The notes beneath the pieces are model-generated. The model made no database searches, was not told the DNA's origin, and was given only the letters and a program-made list of their open reading frames with translations. A stretch of DNA of 64,000 nucleotides from the NCBI RefSeq assembly GCF_009769385.1, contig NZ_VKAB01000011.1, forward strand, positions 372,001 to 436,000, in the 5' to 3' direction. The DNA comes from Saccharothrix deserti. Lineage in GTDB: Bacteria; Actinomycetota; Actinomycetes; Mycobacteriales; Pseudonocardiaceae. The first letter of the stretch is position 1. Each line of letters opens with the position of its first letter. This document shows positions 19,440-26,234 of the stretch, one piece after another. The translations under genes and the position numbers were made by a program.

Positions 19440-21482
19440 GTGACCGCTGAGATCCTGTACGGGGCCGACGACCTGACCCACCTCGAGGGTCTCGAGGCGG
19501 TTCGCAAGCGCCCCGGCATGTACATCGGGTCCACCGACAGCAGGGGCATCAACCACCTGTTCTCCGAGGTGGTCGACAACTCCACCGACGAGGGCGTGGC
19601 CGGTCACGCCACCAAGATCGTCGTCACCCTGCACGCGGACGGCAGCGTCCAGGTGGACGACGACGGCCGCGGCATCCCCACCGGCACCCACGCCAAGTCC
19701 GGCCTGTCCGGCGTCGAACTGGTGCTCACCCGGTTGCACGCCGGCGGCAAGTTCGGCGGCTCCGGCTACAAGACCTCCGGCGGCCTGCACGGCGTCGGCG
19801 CATCCGCGGTCAACGCGCTGTCCCACCGCTTCGACGTCGTCGTCCGCCGCGAGGGCAAGACGCACGAGATGTCGTTCGCGCACGGCGTCCCCGGCGTGTT
19901 CGACGGCCCCGGTCCCAAGGCCGCCTTCACCCGCCAGTCCGGCCTGCGCGTCACCGGCCGCACCAAGCGCACCGGCACGTCCATCCGCTACTGGTACGAC
20001 GCCCGCTACTTCGAGAACGGCGCCGCGCTCGACGTCGAGGCGGTCCGCACGAAGCTGCGCAACACCGCGTTCCTCGTCCCCGGCGTGACCTACGTCCTGC
20101 GCGTCGCCACCGACAGCGCGATCGGCGAGGAGACGTTCCACTACCCGGGCGGCCTGGTCGACATGGTCGACTACCTCGCGCCCGCGAGCGACAAGCCGGT
20201 CTCCGGCACGCTGCTCATCACCGGCACCGGCATCTACCACGAGAACGCGGCCGACGAGAACGGCGTCATGCGGTCCAAGGTCGAACGCCAGGCCGAGGTC
20301 GAGATCGCGTTGCGCTGGGGCACCGGCTACGAGCGCACCGTGGAGTGCTTCACCAACACCATCCGCAACGTGCACGGCGGCACCCACCGCAAGGGCTTCG
20401 AACGCGCCGTCCTCAAGGCCGTCCAGGACGCGATCGGCAAGACCAGGGGCCTGCTCAAGCCCAAGGAAGACCCGCCGACACTCGACGACGTGCTCGAAGG
20501 CATGACCGCCGTCGTCCACGTCCGCATCCCCGAACCGCAGTTCACCTCGCAGACCAAGGACGAGCTGTCCACCGCGGGCATCACCAAGGTCGCGTCCGCG
20601 ATCGTCGACAAGCACATCAAGACCTGGACCGAGGACCGCCGCACCAAGTCCGAGGCCAAGGTCGTCCTGCAGAAGGTCGTCGACGCCGCCCGCGTCCGCC
20701 TGACCCAGAAGCAGCAGAAGGACGCCGCGCGCCGCAAGACGGCCCTCGAAGGCGCCGCGATGCCCGCGAAACTGGTCGACTGCCGCACCACCGGCGTCGC
20801 CCGCAGCGAGCTCTTCCTCGTGGAAGGCGACAGCGCCCTCGGCTCGGCGCGCATGGCCCGCGTGTCCGAGTACCAGGCGCTGCTCCCGTTGCGCGGCAAG
20901 ATCCTCAACGTGCAGAAGGCCAGCCTGGCCGACACCCTCCGCAACGCCGAGATCGCCAGCATCGTGCAGGTCCTCGGCGCGGGCACCGGGCGGACGTTCG
21001 ACCTCACCACCATGCGCTACGGCCGGGTCATCCTGATGGCCGACGCGGACGTGGACGGGTCGCACATCCGGACCCTGCTGATCACCCTGTTCGCCAAGTA
21101 CATGCGGCCGGTGATCGAGGACGGCCGGCTGTACGCCGCCATGCCGCCGTTGCACAAGGTCGTGACCAAAGGCCGCAACGCGGAGACCCACTTCACCTTC
21201 AGCCAGCGCGAGATGGAGCAGAAGGTCGCCAAGCTGGAGAAAGCGGGCAAGACGGTGATCAAGCCGGTGCCCCGGTTCAAGGGCCTCGGCGAGATGGACG
21301 CGGACGAGTTGTGGGAGACCACGATGAACCCCGCCACCCGCTCGGTGCGCCGCATCACCATGCACGACGCGGAAGCCGCGGAAGCCGCGCTGGAACTGCT
21401 GATGGGCGAGAAGGTCGAGCCGCGCCGGGCGTGGCTCGTCGAGTCGGCCGCCCGGGTCGACCAGTCCGCGATCGACGTCTGA
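19440..21482 (+). CDS. parE: DNA topoisomerase IV / gyrase-like subunit B
   Basis: ATPase subunit (680 aa) of a type IIA topoisomerase. The GHKL ATPase domain shows EAVRKRPGMYIG, VVDNSTDEG, DDDGRGIP and GGLHGVGASAVNALS. The transducer and TOPRIM domains follow, with LVEGDSALGSA and MADADVDGSHIRTLLITLF; PRFKGLGEMDADELW closes the protein. It resembles the second, ParE-like type II topoisomerase of actinomycetes rather than the oriC-linked GyrB, since the neighbours are not recF/gyrA of the origin. GTG 19440 follows GGGGAGAA. The A subunit starts 30 bp downstream, so they are one operon, with a LexA box upstream. Confidence 0.88.
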   Translation: MTAEILYGADDLTHLEGLEAVRKRPGMYIGSTDSRGINHLFSEVVDNSTDEGVAGHATKIVVTLHADGSVQVDDDGRGIPTGTHAKSGLSGVELVLTRLHAGGKFGGSGYKTSGGLHGVGASAVNALSHRFDVVVRREGKTHEMSFAHGVPGVFDGPGPKAAFTRQSGLRVTGRTKRTGTSIRYWYDARYFENGAALDVEAVRTKLRNTAFLVPGVTYVLRVATDSAIGEETFHYPGGLVDMVDYLAPASDKPVSGTLLITGTGIYHENAADENGVMRSKVERQAEVEIALRWGTGYERTVECFTNTIRNVHGGTHRKGFERAVLKAVQDAIGKTRGLLKPKEDPPTLDDVLEGMTAVVHVRIPEPQFTSQTKDELSTAGITKVASAIVDKHIKTWTEDRRTKSEAKVVLQKVVDAARVRLTQKQQKDAARRKTALEGAAMPAKLVDCRTTGVARSELFLVEGDSALGSARMARVSEYQALLPLRGKILNVQKASLADTLRNAEIASIVQVLGAGTGRTFDLTTMRYGRVILMADADVDGSHIRTLLITLFAKYMRPVIEDGRLYAAMPPLHKVVTKGRNAETHFTFSQREMEQKVAKLEKAGKTVIKPVPRFKGLGEMDADELWETTMNPATRSVRRITMHDAEAAEAALELLMGEKVEPRRAWLVESAARVDQSAIDV

Positions 21483-21512: not shown

Positions 21513-24500
21513 ATGGCACGCCGCAAGACCCCCACGACCAGGGTCGACCCATCCGCCTTCGACCGCGCGGGCGCCCAGGTCTTCGACAACTCGCTGACCA
21601 CCGAGATCGAGGACTCCTACCTGGAGTACGCCTACTCGGTGATCCACTCCCGCGCCCTGCCCGACGCGCGGGACGGCCTCAAGCCGGTGCACCGCCGCAT
21701 CCTGTTCTCGATGAACGAACAGGGCTACCGCCCGACCAGCGCGTACGTGAAGTCGTCCCGCGTGGTCGGCGACTGCTTCGTGCGCGGCGCGCTCGTGTCC
21801 ACGCCCGAGGGTTTGCGGCCGATCGAGGAGATCGAGATCGGCGACCACGTCCTGGACGGGCGGGGCGAGCCTGTCGCGGTCAACGCCGTCTACGAGAACC
21901 CGGTGTCGGAGCTGGTCCGCGTCACCTGGTCGGACGGCCACTCGATGCTGGTCACGCCCGGCCAGCGGTTCCGCACCCGGGACGACTCCGCCGACTCGAC
22001 CGGGTCCAGCGACGACTGGACCGACGCACGCGACCTGGTCGGCGCGCGCACGGTCGGTTTCGGCGCCGAACGACACGCGAACCTGCTCGCCGACGGCGAC
22101 GCGACCGGCTTCGTGCTCGGCCTGGTGGCCGCCTGCGGTGACGTGCTCGCCGACGGGCGGGTGCGGCTGGAACTGGCCGACGTCGACCCGATCGACATCG
22201 CGCACGGCTGGGCCATCACGCACGACGTGACCGTGTCGCGCGACAAGATCCAGACGAACGAGCGCGAGCGGCACACCCTCACCTTCGCCCGCCACCCGCA
22301 GCTGGAGGCGGCGACGTCCGGCCGGCTGCACGCGGTGCTGCGCGACCGCTCCGCGTGGACGCCGTTCCTCGCGGGCCTGTTCATCGCCTCCGGTTTCGTC
22401 CGCCACGGCCGCGAGATCGTCATCCCCGGCGGCGAACCCGAGTACGCGCTGCTCGCCGACGCGGGCATCCGCGCCCGACGCGACGCGACCAGCCTCACGA
22501 TCACCGGCCGCGACGCCGCCGCGCTCGCCGTGGCACTGCTGCGCTGGACCGGCGTCGGCCCCCGCCAGGACGGCCTGGTCCAGGCGATCCGCAACGCCAG
22601 GCACGCCGTCGACAAGCCGTTCCCGCACGTCGTGTCGGTGGAGCCGGCCGCGCCGGACACGACGTACGACATCCAGGTCGCCACCGAAGAGCACGCGTTC
22701 GTGGTGAGCGGCTTCGTCGTGCACAACTGCATGGGCAAGTACCACCCGCACGGCGACACCGCGATCTACGACGCGATGGTCCGCCTGGCCCAGGACTTCT
22801 CCCTCAACACCCCGCTGGTCGACGGGCACGGCAACTTCGGAAGCCCAGACGACGGACCGGCAGCGTCCCGCTACTGTGTCGTCGGCGATACTCGAATTCG
22901 GCTCGCAGACGGCACCAGTCCGCGTATCGCCGATTTGGTGAACCTCTCGGCCGATTCTGAAGCTGACGCGGATTTCGAAGTTCTGGACAAGGACGGCAAG
23001 GCTGTCCGGATCAACAAGGTATTCAACTCCGGTATTCATCCCACAATCCGCATGACGACGAAGTCGGGCTTCTCGTTGCGCGGCAGCGAGAACCACCTCG
23101 TGCTTTGCTTGGAAGCCCCGATGGGGGTGCCGTTGTTCCAGTGGCGGCGACTGGATGAACTCCAGCCCGGCGCGGTCGTGGCGGTCGCACGGAACGCCTG
23201 GTCGCAGGTCGTGCCCACGGCACAGGAGTACATGCTCGGAGTCCTGGGCGGCGCATGGGTGTCCGAAGGATTCGCCAGCGAGAACCGAGCGGGCTTCAAC
23301 AACACCGACGAGCACTTCTTTACCGAAGTGCTGCACGCTTACGACCAGGTGGTCGGAGGCAAGCGCTATGTGTCGGAGCGGCATACCCGTCGAGACCGCA
23401 AGCTGATCCGCGAAATCGACATCCAGGACTACGCCGGTGGCATGGAGGCCTTCCGGAACAGTCCGCTCGCGGAGTTCATCGGTCACCAGGCGCGTGACAA
23501 ATTCGTTCCTGAGTTCGTCTGGAACGGCGGCTGGGGTGTCAAGCGCGCGTTCCTGATGGCGGCGTTCGAGGGTGACGGCGGTTGCCGCGAGGCCTACAAC
23601 AGCTTCACGATCCAGTACACGACCTACAGTTCCCGGCTGGCCTCGCAGATGCAGGAGTTGCTGGCTGAATTCGGCGTGATCGCTGTTCAACGCCAGTACC
23701 GGCGTCCGAACGGATCGTTGGAATACCGCTTGGTCGTGTCCGGCCTCCGGAATGTCCGGGCCTTCGCGGAACGAGTCGGATTCCTGAGGACCAAGCAGGC
23801 GACGCTGAGCACCTTGCTCCGCCGTTCCCCGCTGCGGGCGCACCGTCTGAGCTCGGACAGCGTGCCGTTCGTCGCGGACTACGTGCGCGGGGCGTTGGAC
23901 TTCGATCGGCGTGGCAGTGGCCGCAAGTGGCTGACGCAACACAACTTCGATCGCGTCGAACGGTGGGAGACCGAGCGCCTGCGGATCATCGACCGGATCA
24001 AGGACACCGAGATCCTGGCGACGATCCTGCCGATCATGGACTCGGGTTACCGCTTCGAGGCGGTGACCGAGGTCGAGGCGTGCGAGCCGGCTGAGGTCTA
24101 CTCGGTGCGAGTCGAGTCCGAGGACCACTCGTTCCTGGCCGGTGGGTTCGTCAACCACAACACCGAGGCTCGGATGTCGCCCGCCGCGATGTTGCTGGTC
24201 GGTGAGTTGGACGAGGAGACCGTCGACTTCCGGCCCAACTACGACGGGTCGTTGCAAGAGCCGACGGTGCTGCCCGCCGCGTTCCCGAACCTGCTGGTCA
24301 ACGGCACGTCGGGGATCGCGGTCGGGATGGCGACGAACATGATCCCGCACAACCTGGGTGAGGTCGTGGCGGCGGCGCGGTATCTGGTGACGCATCCGGA
24401 CGCGACGTTGGACAAGTTGATGGAGTTCATCCCGGGGCCGGACCTGCCGACCGGTGGGGTGCTGCTCGGGTTGGACGAGGTGCGCAAGGCGTACGAGACC

Positions 24501-26234
24501 GGGCGCGGTGTGGTGCGGATGCGGGCCAAGGTGGAGACCGGGTTGCTGGAGGGCAGTCGGGGTCGGCAGGCGATCACGGTCACCGAGCTGCCGTACGGGG
24601 TCGGCCCGGAGAAGATCATCGAGAAGATCACCGACGAGGTGACCAAGTCGAAGCGGCTGACCGGCATCTCGGACGTGAAGGACCTGACCGACCGCGAGAA
24701 CGGCACCCGCGTGGTGATCGAGTGCAAGGTCGGCGTGAACCCGCAGGCGTTGCTGGCCGATCTCTACCGGCTCACGCCGATGGAGCAGTCGTTCGGCATC
24801 AACAACCTGGTGCTGGTGGAGGGCCAGCCCCGCACGCTGGGGTTGAAGGCGCTGCTGGAGGTGTTCCTCAAACACCGGTACGAGGTCGTCACCCGGCGCA
24901 CCCGGTACCGGCGGCGCAAGCGGGAGGACCGGCTGCACCTGGTCGAGGGCCTGCTCAAGGCTTTGCTCGACATCGACAAGGTGATCAAGCTGATCCGCGG
25001 CAGCGAGAACGCCGCCGCCGCGAAGGAGGGCCTGGTCAAGACGTTCAAGCTCTCCGAGATCCAGGCGACCTACATCCTCGACACGCCGTTGCGCCGGCTG
25101 ACCCGCTACGACTCGTTGGAGTTGGAGGCGGAGCAGGAGAAGCTGCGCGGTGAGATCGCCGAGCTGAGCAAGATCCTGGACGACCCGCAGGTGTTGAAGA
25201 AGGTGGTGTCGACGGAGTTGGCGAAGGTGGCCAAGGACCTCCAGCAGGACCGCCGCACGACGCTGCTCGACGGTGACCTGAAGGAGGTGCTGGCGGCGTC
25301 GAAGCCGGCCGGGCCGCTGGAGGTCGCCGACGACCCGTGCCAGGTGGTGTTGTCCGCGACGGGGCTGGTGGCGCGGACGGCCGCCGAGTCGGAGGAGGCT
25401 TCGGAGGCGCGTCGGCGCAACGGTCGGACGAAGCACGACGCGGTGGCGGCCACCGTGCACACGACGGCGCGCGGTCAGGTGCTGTTGGTGACGAACCGCG
25501 GTCGGGCGTTCAAGACGGACGTGTTGCCGTTGCCGGTGTTGCCGGAGCAGAGCGGCACGGTGTCGTTGAGCGGTGGCATGGCGGCCAGTGAGCTGGTCGG
25601 CCTGGAGGCCGGTGAGAAGGTCGTGGGCATCGCGCCGTTGACCGACACGGATTCGCCGGGTCTGGCGTTGGGCACGAGGTCGGGCACGGTGAAGGTGTGC
25701 TCGCCGGAGTGGCCGGTGCGGTCGGACGAGTTCGAGGTGATCACCCTCAAGGAGGGTGACGAGGTCGTCGGTGCGACCTGGTTGACCAGTGCCGACGAGA
25801 CGTTGGTGTTCGTGACGTCGGAGGCGTCGCTGTTGCGGTACTCCGCGTTGTTGGTCCGCCCGCAGGGCCTCAGGGGCGGTGGTATGGCGGGCATCAACGT
25901 CGGGTCGGACGCGTGGGTGGTGTTCTTCGGGGCGGTGCGCACGGACGACGACGAGCACGGTGAGCCGATGGTGGTCACGTCGACCGGGCAGAGCGTGAAG
26001 GTGACGCCGTTCTCCACGTACCCGGCGAAGGGGCGCGCGACGGGTGGTGTGCGGGCGCACCGGTTCCTCAAGGGTGAGACGGCGTTGGCGTTGGCCTGGG
26101 TGGGGCCGCGGCCGGCGGGTGCGGCGGCCAACGGGTCGCCGGTCGAGTTGCCCGCGCCGGACGAGCGGCGGGACGGTTCCGGTCACGCCCATCCCGGTCC
26201 GGACGTGGTGGGTCACGTGATCGAGCGCGACTGA
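21513..26234 (+). CDS. parC: DNA topoisomerase IV subunit A with two inteins
   Basis: DNA-cleaving subunit of the type IIA topoisomerase, encoded as a 1573-residue precursor holding two inteins (residues 88-405 and 455-883). The spliced extein would be 826 residues, the normal length. Extein landmarks are [41 protein letters not shown] and ASRY before TEARMSP, where Y454 is the catalytic tyrosine. A five- or six-bladed beta-pinwheel C-terminal domain follows ([23 protein letters not shown]), with no clear QRRGGKG gyrase box, which favours topo IV over gyrase. Both inteins must be removed to restore the active site. Codon choice differs on the two sides of the inteins (more TTG/GTG/GGG after 24160). 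Confidence 0.9.
21774..22727 (+). other. Intein 1 of topo IV A (318 aa, decayed endonuclease)
   Basis: Begins with Cys after VVGD (block [25 protein letters not shown]) and ends VVHN before Cys-Met-Gly-Lys, giving the His-Asn end and a +1 Cys nucleophile. Two LAGLIDADG-like segments remain: [10 protein letters not shown] keeps one acidic residue, while [10 protein letters not shown] has lost it. Block B reads VTPGQ, so the conserved His is Gln (codon 21963-21965). Base composition matches the host gene, suggesting long residence. The insertion precedes the conserved MGKYHPHGD segment. Splicing ability is therefore uncertain, although the gene would be useless without it. Confidence 0.88.
22875..24161 (+). 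other. Intein 2 of topo IV A (429 aa, intact-looking homing endonuclease)
   Basis: Begins with Cys right after catalytic Tyr454 ([13 protein letters not shown]) and ends FVNHN before Thr-Glu-Ala-Arg. This is the same insertion site as the mycobacterial GyrA intein family (Mxe GyrA). Block B His is present (SENHLVL), as is block F (EDHSFLAGG). Two LAGLIDADG motifs keep their acidic residues: [12 protein letters not shown] and [10 protein letters not shown]. Base composition is visibly lower in G+C than the flanks (ggtattcatcccacaatc), pointing to more recent arrival. Confidence 0.92.

Follow-up and report, generated by a model that had tools for sequence, protein, structure and literature searches.

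Inteins, genes that hold two of them and inteins at the GyrA site are all known already, and DNA gyrase subunits A and B are among the bacterial intein hosts named in the part of PMC5874633 that deals with them. The closest described neighbours are MCM-a and MCM-d of Haloferax, two inteins with active nucleases whose co-homing into empty alleles is poor according to the results given on this pair in PMC10643990; the discussion of that report calls for further research on how often an intein without a homing endonuclease (HEN) homes by way of its neighbour. Here, two inteins are described in parC, the gene for subunit A of topoisomerase IV, in a 64,000-nucleotide stretch of the genome of Saccharothrix deserti, a member of the Pseudonocardiaceae (contig NZ_VKAB01000011.1, positions 372,001 to 436,000; "the window" below is this whole stretch). 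Only 147 bp, or 49 extein codons, separate them. As with MCM-a and MCM-d, this is a close pair in one replication gene, patchy in its distribution and moving horizontally, and as with MCM-d the residue at +1 is a different one where the site is occupied, Ser instead of Pro in MCM-d and Cys instead of Val or Thr here (compared with the sections of PMC10643990 on these inteins). Unlike the MCM pair, the parC pair has a bacterial host, the site 1 intein is truncated in 12 of 13 distinct alleles that carry both inteins, and sister species show reciprocal replacement of one intein by the other. The window twin and these swaps are probably explained by homing with co-conversion between the two close sites.

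A second described parallel is DnaB of Mycobacterium smegmatis, where a gene of bacterial origin likewise has two inteins and the nuclease of one does not work (as presented in parts of PMC10643990 and PMC8529194). In those accounts the first DnaB intein belongs to the class 3 mini-inteins, whereas its parC counterpart is of the Cys1 type and carries a LAGLIDADG remnant that is predicted to fold, and the parC sites are only 147 bp apart. No paper on inteins of ParC or ParE was found by title or abstract in the open-licence PubMed Central (PMC) literature, nor were the phrases "ParC intein", "ParE intein" or "topoisomerase IV intein". The topoisomerase IV sites were thus not found described in that literature; with them come the block-B variant within the intein class that is treated below and, in a bacterium, a natural experiment on inteins that are neighbours.

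In the window, parC lies directly downstream of parE and is a single open reading frame (ORF) of 1573 codons with both inteins and no internal stop (21513..26234, forward strand, as are all features below), recognised by Pfam and NCBIfam models. An N-extein of 87 residues ending in VVGD (21513..21773) is followed by intein 1 at ParC site 1 (318 residues, precursor residues 88-405, 21774..22727), a middle extein of 49 residues that ends in ASRY with the catalytic tyrosine, Tyr454 of the precursor (22728..22874), intein 2 at ParC site 2, a GyrA-type site (429 residues, precursor residues 455-883, 22875..24161), and a C-extein that starts with TEARM and comprises the remainder of ParC (24162..26231). 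An earlier note, made from the letters of the sequence, had proposed two inteins in one parC with clear junctions, and parsing bears this out: each runs from Cys1 to His-Asn, with +1 Cys after the first and +1 Thr after the second. The exteins are continuous, matching Pfam DNA_topoisoIV at 9.6e-139, and at each of the two sites relatives without an intein have exactly the joined sequence. Since the splice residues are present, except for a Gln at the block-B His position of intein 1, both inteins are expected to excise themselves and leave a ParC of 826 residues, the length computed from the ORF and given in the note. Base composition also agreed with its description: intein 1 is host-like (GC 0.731; GC at third codon positions, GC3, 0.959) and intein 2 is lower in both (0.631 and 0.818), with the exteins at 0.68-0.69 and 0.92-0.97. 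GC content was not relied on as a proxy for age.

Class 1 inteins canonically have Cys1, a block-B T-x-x-H, a penultimate His, a terminal Asn and Cys, Ser or Thr at +1. Intein 1 has C1, H317, N318 and the +1 Cys, sits in frame in a continuous ParC for which relatives provide the exact empty site, and is predicted to adopt a Hint fold. A Hint domain model matches it (Hint_2 6.2e-8), and profiles of the splicing region do so weakly (intein_Cterm 6e-4). The block-B His is replaced by Gln64, within TPGQ (codon 21963..21965), in all 46 distinct intein 1 alleles. In this respect intein 1 resembles inteins of the CDC21-1 type, from which it differs in its host gene and in having Asp at -1. A family with Gln in place of His is a lead on how the first splicing step may proceed without the usual catalytic residue.

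The nuclease of intein 1 appears to be decayed. Remnants of both LAGLIDADG motifs are present, GLVAACGD and LFIASGFV, neither with its acid; the earlier note was right about the loss of acid and miscounted in recording a single motif. The 12 full-length relatives (432-436 residues) read ..AEGF and DGDGYV at these motifs and retain both acids, and one of them, a Crossiella copy (L106; loci are numbered L and genomes G throughout), matches LAGLIDADG_3 at 3.1e-11. The intein 1 of the window, about 115 residues shorter, is therefore best seen as the decayed form of such an allele. Its HEN remnant, residues 105-282 (22086..22619), carries the motif remnants on predicted helices 110-121 and 192-206, and prediction makes it a well-folded domain and not debris. 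It is conceivable, if doubtful, that this retained domain has been co-opted, for instance as a splicing scaffold or a regulator, which would account for the near fixation of intein 1 in Saccharothrix. Several observations argue otherwise: relatives keep much less of the domain (intein 1 has 130 residues in L261 and 265 in L077 and L093), intein 1 is absent from two genomes of the genus, and its rate of evolution exceeds that of the Hint parts and, by a wide margin, that of the exteins, with a ratio of nonsynonymous to synonymous substitution (dN/dS) of 0.44 over 55 pairs of 11 genomes, NG86 (Nei-Gojobori) estimates being biased at a GC3 of about 0.96.

The locus just mentioned (L261:738-1127, genome G228) has a natural mini-intein of 130 residues at ParC site 1 beside a full intein 2 of 429 residues. 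Some 130 residues is near the size of the smallest inteins known.

Intein 2 contains a LAGLIDADG_3 domain (residues 222-302, 23538..23780, Pfam E 5.7e-16); the profile search with Hint and LAGLIDADG models that the note had suggested recovers a Hint match in the first intein and a nuclease match in the second. Both of its motifs carry their acids (WVSEGF and FEGDGG), as the note had read them, and its view that the two inteins stand at different stages of nuclease decay holds. Of 34 distinct intein 2 alleles, scored by sequence pattern, 22 have the full length and both acids, eight are shortened and four lack the first acid. The HEN of intein 2 has a dN/dS of 0.09 (6 pairs of 4 genomes) and looks functional. 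The intein matches NCBIfam GyrA_w_intein (NF038098) at 1e-112 over residues 1-429, and its Hint parts match the structure of the Mxe GyrA intein (1am2) at 3.8e-24. Like these GyrA-a inteins it is placed after the catalytic Tyr with +1 Thr, at SRY/C...HN/TE (slashes mark junctions), before Thr-Glu. The note's recognition of a GyrA-type site after Tyr454 was correct, as all 16 GyrA-like loci of the family, assigned to GyrA by junction and position, carry relatives of intein 2 at the same junction (MRY/C...HN/TE).

Unlike GyrA-a inteins, intein 2 is hosted by the parE-adjacent parC and not by gyrA, and it lies on the ParC-only side of a tree of 42 rows in which 26 ParC copies of more than 400 residues are separated from the 16 GyrA-site copies by a branch with support 100. 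Full-length matches are of two kinds, at 76-93% or 41-49% identity. On these sequences intein 2 represents, within the GyrA-a type, a lineage of ParC, and no recent exchange of inteins between ParC and GyrA was seen in the 42 tree rows. In five genomes of the genus, L286 (G172), L287 (G159), L288 (G215), L289 (G261) and L290 (G279), the second A-subunit gene has a GyrA-site intein; these genomes also have one or two parC inteins.

The sites were parsed in 200 loci in addition to the window, some genomes being represented twice, and no insert contains a stop codon. At E <= 1e-110, 97 of 150 family genomes gave a ParC match; nine of these 97 have both inteins, nine intein 1 only, 16 intein 2 only and 63 neither. 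Within the genus (25 genomes including that of the window) six have both, 17 intein 1 only and two intein 2 only, so that intein 1 is present in 23 of 25 and intein 2, patchily, in 8 of 25. The earlier note had called the twin unusual and had named a family in which the same twin is common as evidence to the contrary; with both inteins in 9 of 97 family and 6 of 25 genus genomes the twin is recurrent, and that claim falls. Across the class, an intein 1 profile matched two of 394 Actinomycetes genomes at E <= 1e-12, both from this same family; the first look scored five candidates per genome listed.

Every parsed intein 1 allele has the +1 Cys (22728-22730 in the window and its homologues), and where site 1 is empty in the family sample the residue is Val in 59 alleles, Thr in 11 and Cys in 9. 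Among 121 loci including the window, with the genus oversampled, Cys occurs in 7 of 25 empty alleles from genera with intein 1 and in 3 of 55 elsewhere (p 0.009). The Cys-bearing empty alleles could be the footprints that lost inteins left behind, or they could represent a pre-adapted target; both fit.

In a host tree built from ParE and ParC (159 rows), the sister of the window is L262 (G127), which has intein 1 and lacks intein 2. The tree of intein 1 also pairs the window with L262, and it pairs L266 with L271 and L265 with L268 in the same way, with L264 placed differently from its position in the host tree. Since three sister pairs agree between the trees, intein 1 seems to have been mainly inherited in this Saccharothrix clade, where it looks long-resident. 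The statement of the note that intein 1 is the older of the two is supported if age is taken as residence time, given the 23 versus 8 occupied genomes of the genus, the agreement between trees and the sister without intein 2. A wholly vertical history is contradicted by two placements: the full-length intein 1 of L281 (G268) groups not with Saccharothrix but in a 16-row group of other genera (support 96), nearest to Lentzea, and Actinosynnema-type copies (L097, L284, L285) group with Actinokineospora (support 89). The fewest changes needed on the host tree are 18 for intein 1, 27 for intein 2, 21 for an intein in parE and 23 for the site 1 Cys.

How the two sites could influence each other is suggested by their spacing. 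Homing at either site would copy the state of the donor across the 147 bp, erasing or carrying along the other intein, and a live nuclease at one site would thereby bring in the donor's state at the other and produce swaps. Coexistence would be easiest once one nuclease is dead and its intein fixed. The window, with a dead intein 1 and a live-looking intein 2, fits this state: the simplest explanation of its twin would be that a mobile intein 2 arrived beside a fixed, nuclease-dead intein 1, the tract of conversion stopping short of site 1.

The evidence for such co-conversion comes from sister loci in opposite states. L278 (G143) has an empty site 1 with Val and intein 2 present, and its sister L281 has a full-length intein 1 with +1 Cys and an empty site 2. 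Their middle exteins differ at 31 of 147 bases, from base 1 to base 141, and the flanks are about 99% identical (5 differences in 633 bases of the second part of parE, 3 in 261 of the N-extein and 12 in 1038 of the C-extein). A pair of Lentzea albidocapillata subspecies (L132 and L135) is likewise swapped, with 27 of 147 differences in the middle extein and 25 of 1038 in the C-extein, and so is an Allokutzneria pair (L215 and L074), with 33 of 147 in the middle, 45 of 1038 in the C-extein and 18 of 261 in the N-extein, these last lying near site 1. Both inteins retain both acids in the Lentzea and Allokutzneria pairs. Over seven disjoint swapped pairs, the ratio of divergence in the 60 bp that follow site 1 to that in the distal C-extein has a median of 2.70, compared with 0.99 in 38 control pairs (p 0.008). 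Seven pairs that share intein 1 and differ at site 2 have their excess at the other end of the middle extein, in the 57 bp before site 2 (median ratio 4.46, controls 2.13; p 0.0025), and none in the first 60 bp (0.82 vs 0.99). Changes at site 1 and site 2 were opposite in 5.7 and in the same direction in 0.5 of 13 phylogenetic pairs, and when tested from the other side were opposite in 5.4 and the same in 0.4 of 18 pairs. An intein in parE, about 0.9 kb away, was unbiased with respect to either parC site (1.4/1.3 and 2.1/2.0).

A number of results weigh against co-conversion or blunt its case. In L278, Gly stands in place of the first acid of intein 2 (row L069, same genome), so that this intein cannot be counted as active now, which leaves the intein 1 of L281 as the live partner, and the swap between these two can be read in either direction. 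The Lentzea pair also differs upstream, at 27 of 261 bases of the N-extein and 47 of 633 of parE, so the upstream edge of its block is not sharp. Nine pairs that lack intein 1 and differ at site 2 had no excess near site 2 (1.65 vs 2.13, p 0.70), which either speaks against a universal rule or reflects the higher overall divergence of those pairs. The last 57 bp are variable in any case, with 2-10 changes in six control pairs without intein 2; the 7 of 57 differences between the window and L262 before site 2 fall within that range, and the short tract proposed for the window is thus plausible and not demonstrated. Sign tests on the opposite changes are borderline (median p 0.07, range 0.008-0.375; from the other side 0.0625, range 0.016-0.219). 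Intein 2 is altered in 6 of the 13 distinct twin alleles, all six with a truncated intein 1, and it is the partner of 1 of 12 full-length compared with 12 of 34 truncated intein 1 alleles, a contrast that is not significant (p 0.13); in L186, one of the 13, both inteins are full length. The raw pooled association of the two inteins is positive (odds ratio 3.9, p 0.016), which is read here as a clade effect. Synonymous divergence (dS) is higher in intein 2 (0.58-0.73) than in the exteins (0.13-0.34), an excess confounded by the lower GC3 of the intein and not used as proof of transfer.

Several of these points would be expected if unrelated inteins shared the gene by chance, conserved motifs favouring both sites and gains and losses being independent. 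The borderline sign tests and the non-significant contrast between full-length and truncated alleles fit such a history, as does the fact that the three sites, one in parE and two in parC, occur in all eight combinations among 159 loci (the parE site being uncovered in 11 and a few near-duplicates remaining), with all three occupied in five; conserved catalytic sites are, moreover, a known rule of intein insertion in the relevant part of PMC5874633. Chance sharing is nevertheless unlikely: reciprocal swaps would not be expected from it, the divergent block of the best pair is bounded by both insertion sites, and the parE control site shows no bias.

Exchange of the middle segments by ordinary homologous recombination is less likely again: bacterial recombination does replace short segments without nucleases, and no donor is in hand, none of the 159 loci being more than 85% identical to either divergent middle segment of L278 and L281, yet in that pair the block begins at base 1 and ends at base 141 of the 147, between flanks about 99% identical, and the two divergent blocks go with different intein states.

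The swaps, with their divergent middle segment, are shown by the sequences themselves, and homing with co-conversion is the preferred inference on what caused them and the window twin. A broader proposal, to which even odds may be given, is that sites 147 bp apart make a competitive pair in which homing at either site would erase the other intein, live inteins would displace each other in sister species and stable coexistence would mostly follow the death of one nuclease, the intein so disabled then being able to persist beside the live one or to ride with it; that the operon with parE would be a three-site hot spot in the Pseudonocardiaceae; and that the intein 1 family would splice with Gln for the block-B His. 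Related bacteria carry all four states of sites 1 and 2, with sister pairs in opposite states, so that natural alleles could serve to test how often an intein with a dead nuclease homes through a live neighbour. On this question PMC10643990 calls for further work, its own finding being that two live neighbours interfere. The parC gene would be a natural place to study competition between such parasites.

The third site lies in parE (19440..21482, 680 residues, from the ORF list; Pfam DNA_gyraseB 4e-42 and Toprim 4.2e-14), which is intein-free in the window, its site being empty before Ser469 (DSALG/SARM, 20843..20844). Elsewhere an intein of 183-485 residues occupies it (DSALG/C...HN/S) in 40 of the 185 loci long enough to include the position, duplicate copies of the same genomes counted in. 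The 484-residue copy of L268 (L268:494-1945) matches NF052663 at 3.2e-41 and Intein_splicing at 5.1e-18 and has no LAGLIDADG match at the thresholds used; judged by eye, its nuclease appears to be of the HNH type.

A phage or plasmid carrier of the parC inteins was also considered, and two scans of viral contigs gave no relative. Intein 1 matched 26 phage records, the 20 matches listed being about 40% identical over a fifth of its length, and intein 2 matched 47, with 21-23% identity in the 20 listed. Among plasmids, 117 records matched at a threshold of 1e-50, none covering 80% of the precursor, and the 20 matches listed align to the C-extein only.

The remaining observations concern the host genomes. 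In the family sample, 53 of 150 genomes had no ParC match at E <= 1e-110; about a third of the family may lack topoisomerase IV or have a very divergent one. The loci nearest to that of the window among named organisms are from Saccharothrix (98% identity in the C-extein). The genome of the window, of 10.8 Mb, has a second A-subunit gene (G000:C19), an 846-residue frame 46% identical to ParC and, from that identity, probably gyrA; a search of this genome matched intein 2 nowhere except in parC. The same genome holds another intein-like insert (L001, G000:C2:295050-295877) in an ORF of 705 residues, with a match to Intein_splicing, and its host gene, judged by eye, resembles a radical SAM gene.
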